This document shows positions 4,644-38,914 of a DNA stretch of 38,914 bases, piece by piece (positions within the stretch are counted from its first letter, which is position 1; each line of letters begins with the position of its first letter). The notes under the pieces were generated by a model. The model saw nothing but the letters and a program-made list of their open reading frames with translations. It searched no databases and was not told where the DNA came from. The position numbers were made by a program, and so were the translations under genes. The stretch comes from a virus. The stretch is taken from positions 1 through 38,914 of IMG/VR virus record IMGVR_UViG_3300033996_001948; one strand, written 5' to 3'.

Positions 4644-5026
4644 TCTGCGCGACGACACTCGACGGAGATCCGGTGACATGGAAGCGCGCGCGGTCGCAGG
4701 GCGCGCGACGCTGGACTGACCCGCACGACAGGCGCTATCGCGACGCGATACGGTATGCGCTACTCGCGGCGCGCCCTCGAGGGTGGCCACTCGACGCGCG
4801 CTACTCCGTGACGCTCGTCGTGAGCGTCCGTCGGGATGTCGGAGACGTGGACAACTATGCCAAGAGCTGGCTCGACGCGGGCAAGGGCATTTTGTGGGAC
4901 GACGACGCGAGCGTGGTCGAGCTGTATGTGCGGCGCGTGCGTGCGGACAGGGGCAGCGTGAGCGTGCTCGTCGAAGCCGATGAGGTACTGCGACGATCGT
5001 CGAAGAAGAGTCGAACCAAGATCTAG
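4640..5026 (+). CDS. rusA: RusA-like Holliday junction resolvase
   Basis: 128 aa, the usual RusA length. The catalytic carboxylates appear in DVGDVDNYAKSWLDAGKGILWDDDASV: D69, D71-N72, K75 and the DDD at 87-89. RusA enzymes are dimeric, Mg-dependent nucleases that cut four-way junctions; in phages they resolve recombination intermediates before packaging. The ATGA overlap with the upstream gene fixes the start. It fits with the Rad52-type and SSB-like genes of the leftward operon. Confidence 0.87.
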   Translation: MICATTLDGDPVTWKRARSQGARRWTDPHDRRYRDAIRYALLAARPRGWPLDARYSVTLVVSVRRDVGDVDNYAKSWLDAGKGILWDDDASVVELYVRRVRADRGSVSVLVEADEVLRRSSKKSRTKI

Positions 5027-5072
5027 AATCGGATACAAACAGCCGCGTTGCGTCGCGGCGTGGAGGGTAGGC

Positions 5073-6689
5073 ATGTATGAGCTGAGGCCGTATCAGGTAG
5101 AGGCCATCGCGGAGATCGAGAGAGCATGGGAGTCGGGACACAGGAGCACGATTCTCGTGCTCGCCACGGGGCTAGGGAAAACGACCGTCTTCACCGAGAT
5201 CGCGCGGCGCGCACGCGACGCTCGGCGCGGGCGGACTCTCGTGCTTGCGCATCGCATCGAGCTCGTGGAGCAAGCGGCGGCGCGGCTTGAGGTGGGCACA
5301 CTCACGACCGAGATCGAGAGTGGCGATAGGCGTGCGTCGTGGATGCAGCTACCGGTATCGGATGCCGTCGTCGCGACGGTGCAGACGCTGCGCGGTCGTC
5401 GGCTCGCGCGATGGCCTCGCGACGCGTTCGGTACGATCGTGATCGATGAAGCGCACCACGCTGCCGCGCGCGCCTATCGCGACGTGCTCGCGCATTTCTC
5501 CGGCGCTCGCGTGCTCGGCGTGACTGCTACTCCCGATCGTGGCGACGAGGTAGCGCTGGGCCATGTCTTCGCGTCGACCGCGTACACGTACGGGATCCGA
5601 GAGGGCATCGAGGGCGGCTACCTCGCGCCGCTGCGCTGCAAGACAATCGATCTCGACTGCGTTTCACTCGACGGCGTTCGCGTCACCCGACAAGAGCACG
5701 GCCGCGACCTATCGGCGGAGGACGTTGCGAAAGCGATGTCGGGAGACGAAGCGCTCCACGCTATCGCGGCTCCCGTCGCGAAAGAGGCGGGCGCGCGAAA
5801 GACGCTGATCTTCATGCCGTCTGTCGAGCTGACGCATGAGCTGGCGCGCGTGCTCTCGGGCTACGTCGGAGCGGACCGCGTGCGCAGCCTCGATGGCTCA
5901 TGCGACAAAGACGACCGCAAAGAACAGCTCCGCGCGTACACACACGGAGACGTGCAGTTCATGGTCAACTGCGCGCTTTTCACGGAGGGCTTCGACGCGC
6001 CGAGCACGTCGTGCGTCGTCGTCGCAAGGCCCACGAAAAGCCGCGCCCTATATGCGCAAATGGTCGGCCGAGGGACGCGTCTCGCGGATGGAAAGAGCGA
6101 TTGCCTCGTCATCGATCTACATCCCGGCAATACGCGCCACGACCTCGCGAAGATCGCGGACATCTTCGACGGGCTTGATCTGCCGGATGGCGGCGAGGAG
6201 CGTGACCTCTTCGATGCTGCGGTGCGGTCCGGCGAGACTGTCCTCGATGCGCGCAAGCAAGCGAAAGAGATCCACGACAAGCGCGAGGCCGCGCGGCGCG
6301 CCGATCGCGAGCGCGCGCGTATGCAAGCGCAGGTCACATATCGTGCAGTCGAGAGGCCAATGTGGTCTGTCGATATCGCGCTCGGAGTCACCGCATCGAT
6401 GTACGGGAGCACCGTGCCTCCTGCTCGCGAAGACCAGATCGAGCGCCTCCGTGCGCTGAAGCTAGACATCGATCCGCGAGAGACCGTGCAAAGCGCCAGC
6501 GCGAAGATCAAGGCCATGCTCGACCGACGAAAGAGCGGCCTATGCACGATCAAGCAGGCTCGCGTCCTCGCGAGAGCGGGCCTGAATCCGGACATGACAT
6601 TCGATCAAGCGCGCACGGCCATGGATCTGCTAGTGGCCAATCGCTGGCGTGCGACACCCGATATGCTTGCTAAATGGGGCGCGCGGTGA
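5073..6689 (+). CDS. SF2 DEAH-box helicase
   Basis: 538 aa. Q-motif-like RPYQVEAI at the N-terminus; Walker A ATGLGKT (31-37); motif Ia LVLAHRIELVEQ; DEAHH (125-129); motif III TATP (151-154); helicase C-domain with FTEGFDAPSTS and motif VI YAQMVGRGTRL. This is the ResIII/UvrB-like superfamily 2 fold. The C-terminal 150 residues hold a charged coiled-coil-like stretch (ARKQAKEIHDKREAARRADRERARMQA) and a helical tail. The start at 5073 has GGAGGG upstream; the longer frame from 4980 overlaps RusA and lacks a ribosome site. Probable role: DNA unwinding in replication or recombination. No primase is seen. Confidence 0.9.
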   Translation: MYELRPYQVEAIAEIERAWESGHRSTILVLATGLGKTTVFTEIARRARDARRGRTLVLAHRIELVEQAAARLEVGTLTTEIESGDRRASWMQLPVSDAVVATVQTLRGRRLARWPRDAFGTIVIDEAHHAAARAYRDVLAHFSGARVLGVTATPDRGDEVALGHVFASTAYTYGIREGIEGGYLAPLRCKTIDLDCVSLDGVRVTRQEHGRDLSAEDVAKAMSGDEALHAIAAPVAKEAGARKTLIFMPSVELTHELARVLSGYVGADRVRSLDGSCDKDDRKEQLRAYTHGDVQFMVNCALFTEGFDAPSTSCVVVARPTKSRALYAQMVGRGTRLADGKSDCLVIDLHPGNTRHDLAKIADIFDGLDLPDGGEERDLFDAAVRSGETVLDARKQAKEIHDKREAARRADRERARMQAQVTYRAVERPMWSVDIALGVTASMYGSTVPPAREDQIERLRALKLDIDPRETVQSASAKIKAMLDRRKSGLCTIKQARVLARAGLNPDMTFDQARTAMDLLVANRWRATPDMLAKWGAR

Positions 6690-9297: not shown

Positions 9298-9530
9298 AGA
9301 CCGGGCAGCGCGTACACGTGGCGCTCGAGACGTGGCCGGGCACGTACGTCCCGCCGCGAGAGCACGGTGCGGTAGTGACGAGCGCGGAGCGGTGGGAGTA
9401 CCTGCCGCACGTGTACGGGCCGCGGCGACGCGACACCCACGGGCACTGGTGGGGCACGGTCGACGTGCGGGTAGACGGCGAGGACGCGGTGCGGCGGGTG
9501 TCGGTGTGTCGAGTGCGTGCGAGGGCGTGA
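9288..9530 (+). CDS. Hypothetical 80-aa protein
   Basis: 80 aa from a GTG at 9288 overlapping the upstream stop by 10 bases. The sequence (ALETGQRVHVALETWPGTYV, later RWEYLPHVYG and GHWWGTVDVRVDGED) looks like a small beta-rich fold. An open frame continues upstream to an ATG at 9120, giving 136 aa; that longer form has a biased, disordered N-terminus and I rate it lower. The 9103 and 9288 products share the phrase TGxRVHV. Confidence 0.5.
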   Translation: MALETGQRVHVALETWPGTYVPPREHGAVVTSAERWEYLPHVYGPRRRDTHGHWWGTVDVRVDGEDAVRRVSVCRVRARA

Positions 9531-9543
9531 ACCAGCGTTCACG
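9526..9543 (+). terminator. Stem-loop at the end of the 80-aa gene
   Basis: CGTGAAC (9526-9532) - CAGC - GTTCACG (9537-9543), a perfect 7-bp stem with a 4-base loop that includes the stop codon. No clear T-tract follows, so it may be a weak terminator or an operator. Confidence 0.4.
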
Positions 9544-9644
9544 GTCGCGGTTTGAGTGTGGATTTTCATTCACGCTTCGGGTCTGGGCGAGGGCGCGTGT
9601 AGGGTGGTAGTCGATGGTGCGGCGCTGTGGCCGAGGAGGGCGCG

Positions 9645-9986
9645 ATGAAGATCGATAGATGGATCTCGTTCGACGAGGCTGATGGTATGTCAGAGGCAGT
9701 GGGCGGCATGGGCGGCGTGTGGGATGGCATGGACCGCGCTGAGTACCTCGCGACGTGGTTGCCAGAGGCGCGCCCGTACATCGAGGCCATCTGGTCCGCT
9801 CTTGACGAGCGCGGCGCGATGTCCGGCCAGGAGCATCAAGACTCGGGCGTGCCTGTCTTCGATGACGGCAAGGTCGCGTCGTTCTCGATGCGCGGATGGG
9901 GCGACCTTGTTGCCGCGTGGTGGAACTCGGCACATCCAGACGAGCCGAGACGCTCCTACTGCCACTATGCATGGGATCTTCCGTGA
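9645..9986 (+). CDS. Hypothetical 113-aa acidic protein
   Basis: 113 aa from the ATG at 9645, preceded at good distance by GAGGAGGG. The longer GTG start at 9627 would place that ribosome site inside the gene. Starts MKIDRWISFDEADGMSEAVG and is rich in Trp, Asp and Glu (GVWDGMDRAEYLATWLPEARPYIEAIWSALDERG). No family recognised. It is the last gene before the CCAACCT repeat region. Confidence 0.68.
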   Translation: MKIDRWISFDEADGMSEAVGGMGGVWDGMDRAEYLATWLPEARPYIEAIWSALDERGAMSGQEHQDSGVPVFDDGKVASFSMRGWGDLVAAWWNSAHPDEPRRSYCHYAWDLP

Positions 9987-10002
9987 GTGCGCGGATGTGA
10001 GA

Positions 10003-10287
10003 GGACCAACCTCCCCAACCTCGGGACCAACCTTAGAGCCAGGTTGGGACGCGGAATCGCCATGTTCCGCAAGCGTTTTCGCGTCACTCCCCAACCTCCC
10101 CAACCTCCTGCAAGAGATCCTGTAGAGGCGACGCTAGCGATAGGCCTAGCGCCCTGTTCTCCCCCGGCAGACTTTTCCGGCGAAAAGGTTGGGGAGGTTG
10201 GTCCACGCGCGGATCGCCTTTCACGGCATGGCTTTTCGCGGGGCCAACCTGGCTCCAAGGTTGGTCCGTCTGCGGCAGGTTGGTCCG
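10003..10287. repeat. Giant imperfect palindrome of CCAACCT repeats, origin or centromere-like candidate
   Basis: Eleven CCAACCT copies lie here. Six are direct (10006, 10015, 10027, 10091, 10100, 10244) and five inverted (10041, 10186, 10195, 10258, 10277). They pair symmetrically about 10145-10146: 10006 with 10277, 10027 with 10258, 10041 with 10244, and the 16-base double unit CCAACCTCCCCAACCT at 10091 with its complement at 10186. A third copy of that double unit is at 10006. Arms also share GGACC flanks and weaker matches (GCCATG, CGCG). The centre carries CGCTAG...CTAGCG (10132-10151). Iteron-like repeats with dyad symmetry are typical of replication origins, partition sites or multi-operator regions. 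No good coding frame covers it. Confidence 0.8.
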
Positions 10288-10305
10288 TCGGTGACGGTTT
10301 CGTCC

Positions 10306-10363
10306 CCGGATTCATGCGAGGCCCCCCTCCGGGGCGAGGGCACCCTCCCTCTGGGGAATCCGG
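10306..10363. repeat. Nested inverted repeats after the palindrome
   Basis: CCGGATTC (10306-10313) pairs with GAATCCGG (10356-10363). Inside are GCCCC (10321) with GGGGC (10331-10335) and AGGG-CA-CCCT (10338-10347). This forms a cruciform-like structure just upstream of the 10379 promoter candidate. It could be a transcription terminator insulating the late operon. Confidence 0.4.
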
Positions 10364-10378
10364 ATTCCTATGAACGCG

Positions 10379-10412
10379 CGTGCACATTATGTGTACGTTG
10401 CTATACATAGGG
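10379..10412 (+). promoter_or_regulatory. Promoter candidate, CGTGCA-N17-TATACA-TAGGG
   Basis: CGTGCA (10379-10384), 17 bases, TATACA (10402-10407), then TAGGG: the same arrangement as at 7322. GTGCACAT-T-ATGTGTAC (10380-10396) is a near-perfect palindrome over the spacer, likely an operator. A start site 6-7 bases after the -10 box would fall at or beside the ATG at 10414, so the transcript may be leaderless. Confidence 0.55.
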
Positions 10413-10413
10413 C

Positions 10414-10860
10414 ATGATGCTCCCGCGCATTCGATGCGTGTACTGCCAGGCGCCCGGCCGGCTGTCCGTCTGTCGCGGGTGCGCACGCGATCGTCGACCG
10501 ACCGAGCTTCAGCGATGGCTATCGTCGCGACACGTGACGATGACGGACCTCGCGGACAGGTGCGGGTGTACGTACCGGACGATCCTGAATGCGGCGCACG
10601 GGGCGCGGCTCAGTGGCGATATTGCGATCAAGATCTCGCGTGCGACGGGGATATCGCTGGAGACTCTACTGCGAGGTACGCATGGGACAGAGAGACCGAG
10701 CGTGGATAGAAGAGCTGCGGGCACTCGTGCGGACGAGCGCGCAGAGTCTACGGGAGCGACTCGACAGCATGGCTCCGGAGCAGGTCGCATCGATCATGGG
10801 CATCGCGGCGAGCGAGATCACGAGCTATCAGAGTCTGATCCCGCAGGGCGACGACGATGA
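10414..10860 (+). CDS. Zinc-knuckle plus HTH regulator
   Basis: 148 aa. Residues 8-23 hold CVYC...CRGC (C8, C11, C20, C23), a small zinc finger. Residues about 41-87 (VTMTDLADRCGCTYRTILNAAHGARLSGDIAIKISRATGISLETLLRG) are an XRE/Cro-type helix-turn-helix. The last 58 residues are low in complexity and overlap another gene for 179 bases; their third positions are poorly GC-biased, so they may be tolerated and not selected. The stop overlaps the terminase start by ATGA. Candidate late-gene activator or autoregulator. Confidence 0.72.
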   Translation: MMLPRIRCVYCQAPGRLSVCRGCARDRRPTELQRWLSSRHVTMTDLADRCGCTYRTILNAAHGARLSGDIAIKISRATGISLETLLRGTHGTERPSVDRRAAGTRADERAESTGATRQHGSGAGRIDHGHRGERDHELSESDPAGRRR

Positions 10861-11020
10861 CGCTAGCGACGCTGGCGAGGGTCGCCCGAATCCGCAGGAT
10901 GGCGGACAGCGCGCGAAGGTCGCGGGAACGCGCCGCAAGGCAGGGAGACCCCGAAAGGCTGTCAAGACGCGCGCTTCCGCTGCGCCAGTGGATCCCAGTC
11001 GCGAGCCCTCATCTCAGTGA
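10682..11020 (+). CDS. Hypothetical 112-aa protein, possible small terminase
   Basis: 112 aa from the ATG at 10682, inside the end of the upstream gene and overlapping the large terminase gene by 164 bases. The N-terminal 60 residues (WIEELRALVRTSAQSLRERLDSMAPEQVASIMGIAASEITSYQ) look like a compact helical domain. The end is basic (RRKAGRPRKAVKTRA), like an AT-hook. Third positions stay GC-rich along the whole frame, which supports it. Position next to the large terminase and DNA-binding character suggest TerS, but similarity is not evident. Confidence 0.55.
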   Translation: MGQRDRAWIEELRALVRTSAQSLRERLDSMAPEQVASIMGIAASEITSYQSLIPQGDDDDASDAGEGRPNPQDGGQRAKVAGTRRKAGRPRKAVKTRASAAPVDPSREPSSQ

Positions 11021-12362
11021 TCCGGATCATCTAGCTCCGCTCGTCGCCGAGCTCGAGCGAGTCGCTAGTGGTGAGTCGATCGAGGTCTGCGTATCGGTGC
11101 CACCGAGGCACGGAAAGACCACGACGATCACACACTGGATCGTGTGGCTGCTCGAGCAGCGCCCCGATATGCGGGTTCTGTATTGCTCGTTCGGCGCGCG
11201 CATGGCCATCAAGCAAACGCGCGCGATGCGCACTTTAGCGCGCAAGCGTGGCATCCCGCTGGGCGAGGTGCAGACCGCTAGTGAATGGACAACTGCGGGC
11301 GGCGGCTGCGTCAAGGCTTGCGGTATTACCGGCCCTCCGACGGGCGATGGCTTCGACGTCATTGTCGTTGACGACCCGCATCGCTCTCGCAAAAGCGCCG
11401 AGTCTCCGCTCGAAAGAGACACCGTCAACACGGGCTATCGCGACGATATCTACACTCGCCAGCTTCCTCGAGGGACGTCGCATGTAATCGTGCACACGCG
11501 GTGGCACGAGGACGATCTTATCGGCGTGATGACTCGCACAAGCGAAGACGGGCCGCGCCCTTTTCGGCTAATCAATCTACCTGCGATCGATGCGAAGGGC
11601 CTACCGCTCGCGCCGAAACTGTGGCCTTTGGAGAGGCTACAGCGCATCGAAATGCGGCTCGGCGCGTACGCGTGGGCGTCGCTCTATCAGGGCTCGCCGA
11701 GGCCCAAGGGTGGCGCGCTTTTCGGCCCTGCTATCTGGGCCAGCGACCCTCCGCTTGAAGCATCGTACGCGGGCGGAGTCGACCTCGCGCGTACCGCGAA
11801 GTCAAGGTCTGACCACCAAGCCGCTGTTATGCTTGCGAAGGACACGACGAGTGGCGTGATCTACGTGGTCGACATCGAGTGGGCTCGCGAGCTTTTGAGC
11901 GACAGGATCACCGAAGGCGGTGACGCACAGCTCGGCTTTTCGAGGCGCTTGCATTCGATGCAAAGGCGTTGGCACAACGCCTCTTTCCGCTGGTACACGG
12001 GGGGGGGCGAGTCGTCGCTTTCAGACCTCCTCGCGAGACACGACACATATCCAGCCCACGTCCGCCAGGTCAAAGCGACTGAGGACAAGTGGGGTCGCGC
12101 GCAGCCGTTCGCCGCAGCGTGGAATGCCGGCAAGATCCGCGTGATTCGGTCGCTTCGTCACGCCGAGGATCTCGTGGGACAGTTGCAGCGATTCACCGGA
12201 CTTGACGGGGATTCGGACGATCTGGTCGACGCCGTCGTCGCTGCGTACGATGAGATCGGCGGAGAGACCATCATCCGCGGTATCTCGAAGCCAGAAGAGC
12301 GCGCCGCACTAAAGCCGGCGGCAGCTTCAAGGTCTGTCTCGAAGGGCCGAATGCACACGTGA
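10857..12362 (+). CDS. terL: Terminase large subunit
   Basis: 501 aa. ATPase domain with Walker A PPRHGKTTT (82-90) and Walker B VIVVDDP (168-174) followed by HRSRKSAES. The nuclease domain follows with GGVDLARTAKSRSDHQAAV and the late acidic block DGDSDDLVDAVVAAYDEI. TerL drives genome packaging into the prohead and cuts the concatemer. The ATG at 10857 overlaps the upstream stop by ATGA. The first conserved residues appear near 38 (SRRALPLRQWIPVASPHL), so an internal start such as 10899 is possible and would shorten the overlap with the preceding gene. Confidence 0.95.
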   Translation: MTLATLARVARIRRMADSARRSRERAARQGDPERLSRRALPLRQWIPVASPHLSDPDHLAPLVAELERVASGESIEVCVSVPPRHGKTTTITHWIVWLLEQRPDMRVLYCSFGARMAIKQTRAMRTLARKRGIPLGEVQTASEWTTAGGGCVKACGITGPPTGDGFDVIVVDDPHRSRKSAESPLERDTVNTGYRDDIYTRQLPRGTSHVIVHTRWHEDDLIGVMTRTSEDGPRPFRLINLPAIDAKGLPLAPKLWPLERLQRIEMRLGAYAWASLYQGSPRPKGGALFGPAIWASDPPLEASYAGGVDLARTAKSRSDHQAAVMLAKDTTSGVIYVVDIEWARELLSDRITEGGDAQLGFSRRLHSMQRRWHNASFRWYTGGGESSLSDLLARHDTYPAHVRQVKATEDKWGRAQPFAAAWNAGKIRVIRSLRHAEDLVGQLQRFTGLDGDSDDLVDAVVAAYDEIGGETIIRGISKPEERAALKPAAASRSVSKGRMHT

Positions 12363-16765: not shown

Positions 16766-16836
16766 TGCGACGTGGATCAATGGTCGATCAAGGGTCTCAT
16801 ACACCCTGTAAGCCGGTTCGATTCCGGCCGTCGCAA
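16766..16836 (+). tRNA. tRNA-Met (anticodon CAU)
   Basis: Full cloverleaf read by hand. The 7-bp acceptor TGCGACG/CGTCGCA is perfect. D-stem GATC/GATC has a 7-base loop containing GG. The anticodon stem AGGGT/ACCCT carries loop CTCATAC with anticodon CAT at 16798-16800. Variable loop is GTAA; T-stem GCCGG/CCGGC has loop TTCGATT. T33, T54, T55, C56 and A58 are present. CCA is not encoded. CAU could be elongator Met or, if lysidine-modified, Ile. It sits in the structural operon right after the capsid stem-loop. Confidence 0.85.
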
Positions 16837-17266: not shown

Positions 17267-17725
17267 ATGGCATACGTGACGGAGACTCAGCTCGAGAATG
17301 CTCACGGCGTGGACGAGGTCTACGCCTTGACGGGCGGGTCTGCGTCGACGATGGCTTCGCTGATCGACGAGGCGAGCGCGAGAGTCCGAGAGGCCCTGAT
17401 GGTCGGCGGGTACTCTGCCGCTGTACCGGAGACCGTGTACGCGGCAGACGCCAGCGATTGCCCGCTGGAGATCCGCACGCTCACCGAGAAGGTGTGGAAA
17501 AGGGTCGCGTACACGCGGCGTGATCTCTCTATTCCAGAAGACCAGATGTCCCTCCTCGATGCGATGCTCGCGCGCGTCGAGGAGGGACGCGCCGAGATGA
17601 AGGGGCTGTCTCGCGACGTCACGCGCAGCCCTGGAGGCATCACGTCGAGCATCTCGAGCTCCACTTCGACTGACGAGAACGCGCGCCCGCGGGTCTTCTC
17701 GCGGCCTCGGATGAGGGGCTACTGA
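17267..17725 (+). CDS. Head-tail connector, DUF1320 (Mu gp36-like)
   Basis: 152 aa. The N-terminus MAYVTETQLENAHGVDEVYAL and the segment IDEASARVREALMVGGY fit the DUF1320/gp36 family, which occupies this position in Mu-like genomes. The end is Ser-rich and basic (SRPRMRGY). Likely head-completion adaptor. Its stop TGA shares one base with the next ATG. Confidence 0.82.
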   Translation: MAYVTETQLENAHGVDEVYALTGGSASTMASLIDEASARVREALMVGGYSAAVPETVYAADASDCPLEIRTLTEKVWKRVAYTRRDLSIPEDQMSLLDAMLARVEEGRAEMKGLSRDVTRSPGGITSSISSSTSTDENARPRVFSRPRMRGY

Positions 17726-29580: not shown

Positions 29581-30015
29581 ATGGCCGATAACGTCCAGCT
29601 CCCCGCGAATACCGGGAAGGTCGCGACCCGCGAGGTCACCTACAGCGGCGAAACCGCGCAGGCTCAAGCGGTCGGGCTCGTCGTCGTGAGTGGCGCCGAT
29701 GACGCTAAGGTCGCGACCGACGTCAGCGCGCAGGAGCCACTGCCGGTCAAAGACACCGGTGGCGCCGACTCACCCGGAAGGATGATCCTTGCGGTGCTTC
29801 AGAGCCCGCCTGGATTCGACAGCACGCTACGCCGCGCGAGGTCGACTGCCGTCATTGAAAGCGGGACTGTCACGACTGTCACGACTGTCACGACTGTCAC
29901 GACTGTCGCGACTGTCACGGGTCTCACGAACATCGACGGCCGAAACGGGTCAATGCTCATCAACCAAACCAACCTCAGCGCGTGGGCCGATGTCGTTCGC
30001 GCAAGGATCACCTGA
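29581..30015 (+). CDS. Virion protein with VTT repeats, 144 aa
   Basis: 144 aa. Starts MADNVQLPANTGKVATREVT and ends with a VTTVTTVTTVTTVATVT run and GLTNIDGRNGSMLINQTNLSAW. Runs of TVTTV before a short end domain are common in phage tail-region proteins and probably form a fibrous stalk. The run is encoded by 9-base tandem repeats. Stop TGA shares a base with the next ATG. Confidence 0.75.
   Translation: MADNVQLPANTGKVATREVTYSGETAQAQAVGLVVVSGADDAKVATDVSAQEPLPVKDTGGADSPGRMILAVLQSPPGFDSTLRRARSTAVIESGTVTTVTTVTTVTTVATVTGLTNIDGRNGSMLINQTNLSAWADVVRARIT
29865..29918 (+). repeat. Six 9-base tandem repeats GACTGTCAC
   Basis: Six consecutive units from 29865 to 29918, five perfect and one (29901) GACTGTCGC. 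Each adds three residues (VTT) without changing frame. Slippage could change stalk length. Confidence 0.9.
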
Positions 30016-34024: not shown

Positions 34025-34359
34025 GGGCGCGTGAGCGAGCCCGAGTCGAGCGCCACGCGGCGCGCGTGCTGTCGCTCGTCGCTCCGAAAATGCGGCTCCT
34101 CGTCGGATGGTCCCGTCAATGCGGAGCATGGCATAGCGGCGTCCACGCGGAGGCCTTCGTGTGGAAGTGCTTCGGTGTGGTCGTTCTGAGCGAGCCTCTC
34201 TTTGAGCGCGGTACGCCCGAGTCGCGCGAGGACACTATCCGACATGAGCTAGCGCACCTCCTCGCATGGCATAGACATGGGCACGAGATACCGGCGCACG
34301 GCAGAGAATGGCGAGACGCACGAGCCGACATTGACCGCGTGCTAGACGAGGACTCGTGA
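34021..34359 (+). CDS. SprT-like zinc metalloprotease domain protein
   Basis: 112 aa from a GTG at 34021 (GTGA overlap). Zinc motif HELAH at 75-79 within DTIRHELAHLLAWHRHGHEIPAHGREWRDA; the downstream HGxxW is the third-ligand region of SprT/WLM-type proteases. Shorter than full SprT (about 160 aa). Role in phages is unknown; DNA-protein crosslink repair or late maturation are options. Confidence 0.8.
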   Translation: MRARERARVERHAARVLSLVAPKMRLLVGWSRQCGAWHSGVHAEAFVWKCFGVVVLSEPLFERGTPESREDTIRHELAHLLAWHRHGHEIPAHGREWRDARADIDRVLDEDS

Positions 34360-35684
34360 GACCGCCGAAGGGGACCGCAGCGCATCGTCAGTGGGTGACC
34401 GCGATGATGCTCGAAGCGGCTCGTCGGGCCAATCGGTCGATCGCAGACATGCCACGGTCGGCCGTGATTGCGATGCGCGGAGAAGGCGACCGTCATTGGC
34501 CACAGTCCGACGACTGGGCTGCGCTCGGAGGGTACGCGCGAGCGCGCGCAGCGTGCGTGCTCGAGCTGGATATGCCATCGGGCGACCCGACGCCGGATAG
34601 AGCGGAGCTTGGTGAGCGTCGAGGCGTGCAGCGCGATCTCCTCCACGCGCGGCGGCTTGAGCGCATCGTCGGAGACCGAGAGCACTGGACGGACACTGTG
34701 TCCCGCCTGCTGCTCGAGGGGATCGAGCGCACTCATACGCGCGCGCACGCACCGCGCATCGAGGCGCCAGCGTACGAGGGAGACCGCGAGGTCGTGGTAT
34801 TGCTGTCGGATCTTCACTACGGCCAGCGCATCGATCCGCGCGAGGTGCCCGGCAGTCGATACGGGTGGACCGAGGCCGCGAGGAGGACCGCCTTCGTCGT
34901 CCGTGAGGCGTGTAGCTACAAGCCATCACACCGCGACAAGACCACGTGCCGGCTCCTACTCGGCGGCGACATCATCGAGGGCGAGATCCACGGGCCTACG
35001 CGCGAGGCCGATGCTCTAGCAGCACAGCTCGACGGCGCTCGGCAGATCCTCACGAGCGCGATTGCCTACCTTCGCGAGAGCTTCGCACGCGTTGACGTCG
35101 TCTGTGCGATTGGCAATCACGGCCGGTGGCCACACGCCCACGGGCGCGCCGTCGCAAGTAAATGGGATGGCGCCGTAACTGTGCTTTACCGCGCGCTTGA
35201 GGCCATCTTCGCGCGCGATCCTGGAGTGACGTGGACGATCCCCCGCACTCCCTATTCGACGTGGACTGCTCCCGGCGGTGCTGTATGCGCGCTCACGCAT
35301 GGAGACACCGTCGTGTCTGCGGGGTCGCCCGGCAGGACCGTGCACACTCACCGCATCGCAGAGCAGCTCCGGAGATGGAACAGCGCGCGCGCTGCGCAGG
35401 GCGAGCCGCCCATTCGCGCTCTCGCACTCGGGCACTACCACGTGCCGATGCGCGTGTGCCTCGACGATGGCCTCGACGTGGTGGTCAATGGCTGCCTCGG
35501 CGGGACTGCCGCATACGCTCAAGGCTCCTATGGCGTGCATGGCTCGCGGCCCGCGCAGGTCATTTGGGAAAGCACCGCGCGCCATCCCGTGGGCGACCTC
35601 CGCGTCGTGGAGGTAGGGCGCGCGGACGACGACGCTAGCCTCGACGCTATCTGCGCTCCAGTAGTCGAGATCGGAGGACCATGA
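34356..35684 (+). CDS. Calcineurin-like metallophosphoesterase
   Basis: 442 aa from a GTG overlapping the upstream stop. Metal-binding motifs in order: SDLHYGQ (151-157), GGDIIEGEIHG (from 203), GNHGR (253-257), THGD (314-317), GHYH (359-362). The N-terminal 135 residues are helical and may be a DNA-binding part. Related to SbcD/Mre11-type nucleases; phage versions are frequently found near late genes. Likely DNA-end processing or nucleotide metabolism; substrate not inferable. Confidence 0.85.
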   Translation: MRPPKGTAAHRQWVTAMMLEAARRANRSIADMPRSAVIAMRGEGDRHWPQSDDWAALGGYARARAACVLELDMPSGDPTPDRAELGERRGVQRDLLHARRLERIVGDREHWTDTVSRLLLEGIERTHTRAHAPRIEAPAYEGDREVVVLLSDLHYGQRIDPREVPGSRYGWTEAARRTAFVVREACSYKPSHRDKTTCRLLLGGDIIEGEIHGPTREADALAAQLDGARQILTSAIAYLRESFARVDVVCAIGNHGRWPHAHGRAVASKWDGAVTVLYRALEAIFARDPGVTWTIPRTPYSTWTAPGGAVCALTHGDTVVSAGSPGRTVHTHRIAEQLRRWNSARAAQGEPPIRALALGHYHVPMRVCLDDGLDVVVNGCLGGTAAYAQGSYGVHGSRPAQVIWESTARHPVGDLRVVEVGRADDDASLDAICAPVVEIGGP

Positions 35685-38253: not shown

Positions 38254-38914
38254 GCCTGCTCGCTCCTCTCGATTTCCGCTTCGATCGCGTCGAGGACCGC
38301 CGTCGCGATGCGGTCCGACGCCTCCGACGCCGCCGCCCACGCCGCATCCGACGCCGCATCCGACGCCGCATCCGACGCCGCCGACTCCGCCGCCCTGGCC
38401 CCCGCCAACCACGCCACCTCCTCCGCAGCCGACGCTACCGCCGACGACGCCGACGCCGCCGCCCTCGACGCCGCCCACGCCGCTCGCGCCGCCGCCCACG
38501 CCGCCGACTCCGCCGCCGACTCCGCCGCCTCCGCCCACGCCGCATCCGACGCCGACACCGCCGCCCGTTCAGACTCCGGTGCACCGCGCCGCAGCCACTC
38601 GAGCACCGCGTCGATCGCAGAGAGGGCGCGGACCTCATCGGCGGGACAGTGCAGACGCGCCTCGCCCACGATCGCGATGAGAGACGCGACGCGAGCGCGC
38701 TCCCATGCAGCATCGTCCAGCGCGCTCCATCGACGCGCGAGCGCCGCGTAGCGCCGGATGACTCCAGGCCACGCGTGAGCGGACACTTCGTCATCGATCC
38801 ACGGCGTCATATGCGCCAGCCATGGCGGCATGACGTACGCGGGGCATGCGCTCGCATCGCCGGCTCTCCCAGCCTCCGGCGACAGTGCAGCAAGTAGACA
38901 CGCACGCTCGTGCC
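38250..38914 (-). CDS. Alanine-rich paralogue A, C-terminal part (5' end lies past the contig end)
   Basis: Continuation of the gene that starts at 209. It reads on from the conserved MPPWLAHMTPWIDDEVS block through IRRYAALARRW, AAWERARVASLIAIVGEAR and VLEWLRRGAPESERAAV. An alanine-rich stretch of roughly 75 residues follows, then the family C-terminus ASDRIATAVLDAIEAEIERS. The stop overlaps the ATG of the Rad52-type gene by 4 bases. The Ala-rich stretch is predicted helical and is longer than in paralogues B and C, which accounts for the extra 20 residues. The function is unknown. Confidence 0.87.
   Translation of the reverse strand, partial: HERACLLAALSPEAGRAGDASACPAYVMPPWLAHMTPWIDDEVSAHAWPGVIRRYAALARRWSALDDAAWERARVASLIAIVGEARLHCPADEVRALSAIDAVLEWLRRGAPESERAAVSASDAAWAEAAESAAESAAWAAARAAWAASRAAASASSAVASAAEEVAWLAGARAAESAASDAASDAASDAAWAAASEASDRIATAVLDAIEAEIERSEQA
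38788..38914. repeat. Terminal direct repeat, right copy (assembly overlap)
   Basis: Second copy of the 127-base end repeat. Joining the copies restores a full reading frame for the first alanine-rich paralogue (209 nt on the left plus 538 nt on the right = 249 codons including stop), which supports circular closure. Confidence 0.93.

Follow-up and report, generated by a model that had tools for sequence, protein, structure and literature searches.

A two-sided CCAACCT array in a phage genome resembles the replication origins that lie behind VapE-type primase-helicase genes

What is the role of a dense, two-sided cluster of one 7-mer in a phage genome in which no VapE initiator is found? The window, meaning the whole stretch of DNA analysed here, is virus record IMGVR_UViG_3300033996_001948, which has 38,914 bases and a 127-base terminal repeat, suggesting that the genome is complete and either circular or permuted. 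A first-pass annotation had offered three functions for the cluster: an iteron origin, a partition centromere or a packaging site. Comparison with other phages supports the first of these well, but not the other two. We infer that the array is a replication origin of the PICI/VapE type, with a probability of about 0.7; the packaging-site and centromere readings are weaker.

A motif count over the 38,914-base window places eleven exact CCAACCT/AGGTTGG units within 278 bp (10006-10283), starting at 10006, 10015, 10027, 10041(-), 10091, 10100, 10186(-), 10195(-), 10244, 10258(-) and 10277(-). CCAACCT occurs 12 times in the window, and the sole copy outside the array is at 29969. Shuffled windows are expected to hold 1.7 copies, none of 100 shuffles reached 12, and no 7-mer exceeded six copies per 300 bp in 20 simulated genomes of equal dinucleotide make-up. 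The claim of eleven copies in fewer than 300 bases, far beyond chance, is thus confirmed. There is no one-mismatch copy in the array region, so all units are perfect. The parts of the array are as follows.

10006-10021, plus strand: iteron doublet 1-2, two CCAACCT 9 bp apart, left outer set (motif count and layout comparison)
10027-10047, no strand: left inverted iteron pair, CCAACCT-N7-AGGTTGG (motif count and layout comparison)
10056-10083, no strand: left spacer, a 71% direct copy of the right spacer (repeat family D3)
10091-10106, plus strand: inner left iteron doublet (motif count and layout comparison)
10107-10185, no strand: central spacer between the iteron sets, 79 bp, presumed melting region (GC 61%, genome 65%)
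10186-10201, minus strand: inner right iteron doublet (motif count and layout comparison)
10213-10240, no strand: right spacer (repeat comparison)
10244-10264, no strand: right inverted iteron pair (motif count and layout comparison)
10277-10283, minus strand: outermost right iteron (motif count)

Two iteron sets therefore flank a spacer: two direct units and an inverted pair, then a doublet, on the left; a doublet on the opposite strand, then an inverted pair and one unit, on the right. The earlier claim that all eleven units pair symmetrically about one centre holds for ten of them, with the centre near 10145; the unit at 10015-10021 has no partner. The earlier description as a 280-bp palindrome applies to the repeats, which follow a mirror-image order, but not to the intervening DNA: as inverted repeats, the two halves reach at best 47% identity (42% outside the repeats), and the spacers 10056-10083 and 10213-10240 are direct, not inverted, copies. 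Likewise, the reported regular spacing of 9 or 12 bases is only part of the picture: doublets have 9 and one interval is 12, but each inverted pair has 14 and the rightmost interval is 19. The CGCTAG and CTAGCG near the centre are indeed present (10132-10151). Open reading frames cross the array region; one example, 9987-10373, has no match in Pfam or PHROGs.

The same array is found in unrelated phages. A blastn search with the array against phage and plasmid collections gave no match. We scanned on DNA patterns alone, defining an array locus as at least seven CCAACCT, on both strands, within 400 bp. This filter is passed by 48 other loci, 46 of which are IMG/VR phage records; some are near-duplicates, and 27 distinct VapE C-termini remain once identical ones are collapsed. 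Most pattern matches in genome contigs were removed by the requirement for both strands, and many of them were tandem repeats on a single strand. Eight matches to an exact 19-mer in other contigs lacked the array and were set aside as chance.

Because the scans ignored proteins, the proteins beside the array are an independent result. VapE (PF05272) is encoded in 45 of the 46 IMG/VR array records, compared with 5 of 80 in a set of stretches retrieved because their terminases were similar, a rough control since these stretches are partial. The lone record without VapE (G038) carries an 812-aa gene, judged by eye from its translation to be a primase-helicase, that ends at the array. The VapE stop codon is 0-34 bp from the first unit in 26 of 35 readable loci and within 150 bp in 31; in one locus, L134, the array precedes the VapE gene instead. 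A 56103-bp phage record (G007) has 39 CCAACCT, 15 of them clustered at 34250-34556; its VapE gene lies elsewhere, near 55 kb, and has an array of its own. This record possibly has two origins.

The likeness extends to layout. The CCAACCT arrays of VapE phages, for example those at a Rhodanobacter thiooxydans locus (L299) and at three IMG/VR loci (L168, L216 and L247), share with the window array the 7-mer, the 9-bp doublets, the kind of inverted pair and a closely similar arrangement. In the best match, L247, nine of the eleven window units fall within 5 bp, which 1 of 1000 random layouts equalled; the sum of the ten best layout scores was equalled by none of 1000. Unlike the window array, the VapE-phage arrays have a near-constant 3-base prefix within each phage and an abutting VapE gene, and their central spacers show a GC drop with a median of 14 points in a set of 44 arrays, against 61% and 65% in the window phage.

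The design is also found with other cores. Arrays of the same kind are built from TGTCCCAC in Pseudomonas phage LPPA36, GGGGTGACC in Marinobacter phage PS3 and ACTGCAACA in Paenibacillus phage Bob, all VapE phages. We fetched 80 VapE loci by protein similarity and counted the 900 bp downstream of VapE, which usually hold 4-11 copies of one 7-mer; within the gene the number is mostly 3, and shuffled sequence gives 2-3. L038, which has a distant terminase, carries a twelve-unit TGGGGAG array directly after a different primase-helicase-like gene. Together, the other-core VapE arrays and L038 lead to a rule: behind a phage primase-helicase gene stands a two-sided iteron array.

The array-linked VapE is a homologue of PriRep1 (PDB 7pds), which it matches both by sequence (E 8e-104) and by fold (E 4e-30), and its predicted model (mean pLDDT 82) has C-terminal helices and a beta hairpin forming a winged-helix-like unit. 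The three bases before the core are near-constant inside each VapE phage (median 0.94) and differ between phages. In a Mantel test, the prefixes of two phages differed more the further their VapE had diverged (r 0.46-0.54, p 0.0005). Given the AAA+ domain, the partial correlation for the winged helix is -0.06 (p 0.74); therefore, the data do not demonstrate that the winged helix is the prefix reader. The prefix constancy of the window array, 0.55, is the lowest among all arrays compared.

The following genes of the window phage lie closest to the question.

4980-6689, plus strand: DEAD-box helicase (PHROG 16), 3.3 kb upstream of the array and closer to it than any other replication-type gene (profile matches)
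9627-9986, plus strand: orphan ORF of 119 aa, its stop about 17 bp before the array, in the place of VapE in other phages (a search found no relatives)
10414-10860, plus strand: Zn-ribbon and Cro/CI-type HTH protein, just downstream of the array (common only to two close relatives)
10682-11020, plus strand: small conserved protein, probable small terminase subunit by its position
10857-12362, plus strand: terminase large subunit, TerL (profile matches)

Besides the DEAD-box helicase, Zn-ribbon/HTH protein and TerL, the phage encodes a DNA methyltransferase, RusA, a Mu-type portal, a head protease, a major head protein, an exonuclease, an endolysin and a Rad52-type protein; one further protein has a sigma-70 region-4 match slightly under the Pfam cut-off. 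Neither PF05272 VapE nor a VapE-type winged helix was found anywhere in the window phage, and the only clear Walker ATPases are the DEAD-box helicase and TerL. To that extent, the first-pass view of a phage with no visible polymerase or Rep protein is borne out. No initiator gene was found immediately 5' of the array, where the upstream ORF is the 119-aa orphan; its single-sequence fold model had low confidence (mean pLDDT 60) and was left unused. DEAD-box helicase relatives occur alongside VapE in several array phages. A single exact DnaA box (TTWTNCACA) is present in the window, at 17493, with none near the array, and an IHF site scan gave nothing near it.

Several further sequence features were observed. 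A tRNA-Met (CAT) gene (16766-16836) directly follows the major head protein gene, and six 9-bp head-to-tail units containing GACTGTC lie on one strand at 29865-29917. Positions 1-1663 and 38454-38914 contain direct repeats about 680 bp apart, with several diverged segment copies and low-complexity GCC-rich stretches; the repeated segment is seemingly single-copy in one relative.

The two closest phages, G001 and G002 from IMG/VR, have genomes collinear with that of the window phage and TerL proteins 77% and 75% identical to its own. The first-pass annotation had proposed the presence of the array in close relatives, and a GC-skew change, as checks. The CCAACCT array is absent from both relatives and is common to unrelated phages instead; the skew has no extremum near 10145 and tracks gene strand. 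Neither result settles the origin question. At the array position, the relatives hold a few TGGCACA sites (4 of 6 genome copies in G001, 4 of about 7 in G002). A palindrome at 9527-9542, GTGAACCAGCGTTCAC, is likely an operator; in G002, the intergenic region upstream of the HTH gene contains it twice in nearly identical form. The sequence at 10337-10348, GAGGGCACCCTC, has a similar counterpart at the corresponding place in both relatives. In all three phages, the HTH frame (10414-11020 in the window) stays open across the overlapping small conserved ORF, and its terminal ATGA overlaps the start of TerL; the small terminase may be split or joined by a frameshift here.

These neighbours bring two other explanations into consideration. 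First, the array could be the site recognised for packaging (pac or cos), with the HTH protein, the small terminase subunit or both, whose genes lie just downstream, as the binding factors. It is immediately upstream of the HTH, TerS-like and TerL genes, and several VapE phages have a small terminase gene about 160 bp, and TerL about 700-1500 bp, beyond their array. However, what the array phages have in common is a primase-helicase and not a particular kind of terminase: in phage Bob, VRR-Nuc and DEAD helicase genes come after the array and no terminase gene is near, and in L101 a DEAD helicase comes next. G001 and G002 lack the array despite their TerL identity, where conservation would be expected, though it is not strictly defining. 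We thus consider a packaging site unlikely. Second, the units could be operators at which the Zn-ribbon/HTH protein, or another phage regulator, controls the late operon. The HTH gene adjoins the array, and the putative recognition helix differs from those of both relatives, whose intergenic region has TGGCACA sites instead. Against this, the search found HTH homologues only in these two array-less relatives and in none of the array phages compared; 131 bp separate the array from the HTH start, and another palindrome, GTGCACATTATGTGTAC, is found at the likely HTH promoter (10380-10396); and chance convergence on the VapE-phage core, 9-bp spacing and dyad layout is hard to credit. An operator array is accordingly improbable.

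Repeat arrays of this size can serve as centromeres, which would make the locus the partition site of a phage-plasmid. No ParA/ParB-like match occurs among the proteins scanned, array neighbours included, and elsewhere the array is tied to primase-helicase genes, so that this reading has very little probability.

The closest known counterparts of the array are the origins of PICIs, in which two iteron sets flank an AT-rich spacer immediately 3' of the initiator gene (PMC6092414); a rep-ori segment of the E. coli PICI EcCICFT073 drove plasmid maintenance (PMC6092414). PICI/SaPI origins share with the window array the two sets of short iterons around a spacer (PMC6092414), and with the VapE array phages the position directly 3' of the initiator gene and one structural family of initiators (VapE/PriRep). 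They differ from the window phage, which has no initiator beside its array, a spacer that is not clearly AT-rich, and the gene content of a full phage rather than a satellite. Among the papers searched, none joins VapE, origin of replication, iterons and phage. In satellite phage P4, ori and crr carry iterons in both orientations that are served by the fused alpha primase-helicase; they are like the window array in having iterons in both orientations, with another iteron sequence. The origin of Streptococcus thermophilus phage Sfi21 is a non-coding segment with direct and inverted repeats, and is alike in these repeats and in its position behind a phage primase gene.

We propose that the array acts as the phage's replication origin, with two mirror-image iteron sets around a short spacer that would open. 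Initiator protomers would load on the plus units of the left set and the minus units of the right set, facing one another with the 79-bp spacer between them; they would melt this spacer and send out two replicative helicases. What is established here is the array itself, how its units are laid out, that it recurs in other phages and that it is tied to primase-helicase genes. Several findings count against an origin: no adjacent initiator gene and no VapE, the two closest phages without the array, no skew turn near its centre, a spacer hardly AT-rich and the loosest prefix. Since the layout matches but initiator adjacency fails and spacer GC is little below that of the genome, we describe the array as working like such an origin and not as a full member of the class.

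The missing initiator could also mean that the array is an inactive relic, whose ancestor carried VapE and the array and then lost VapE. The non-uniform prefix bases and the absence of the array in two relatives agree with this; nevertheless, decay would not leave eleven perfect cores and no one-mismatch copy unless the loss were very recent, and we regard a relic as quite improbable. If the array is instead a working origin, its reader may be the 119-aa orphan, the HTH protein, the DEAD helicase, a host protein or a VapE from another element, and the loose prefix fits a reader that needs the core alone. A tentative version, which we consider doubtful, is that the origin works although the phage encodes no initiator for it: a VapE-type initiator from another phage or a satellite, either resident or co-infecting, would fire it in trans. 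If so, a complete tailed phage would be an origin parasite, or the array would be a decoy titrating a competitor's initiator.

A two-sided iteron array just behind a VapE-type primase-helicase gene provides a sequence rule for locating origins in a large set of phages. The many VapE phages in our scans extend to phages an origin design that had been described as unique to PICIs. In the window phage, the origin and the initiator appear to be uncoupled, and the question of which protein reads the iterons thus becomes directly testable.
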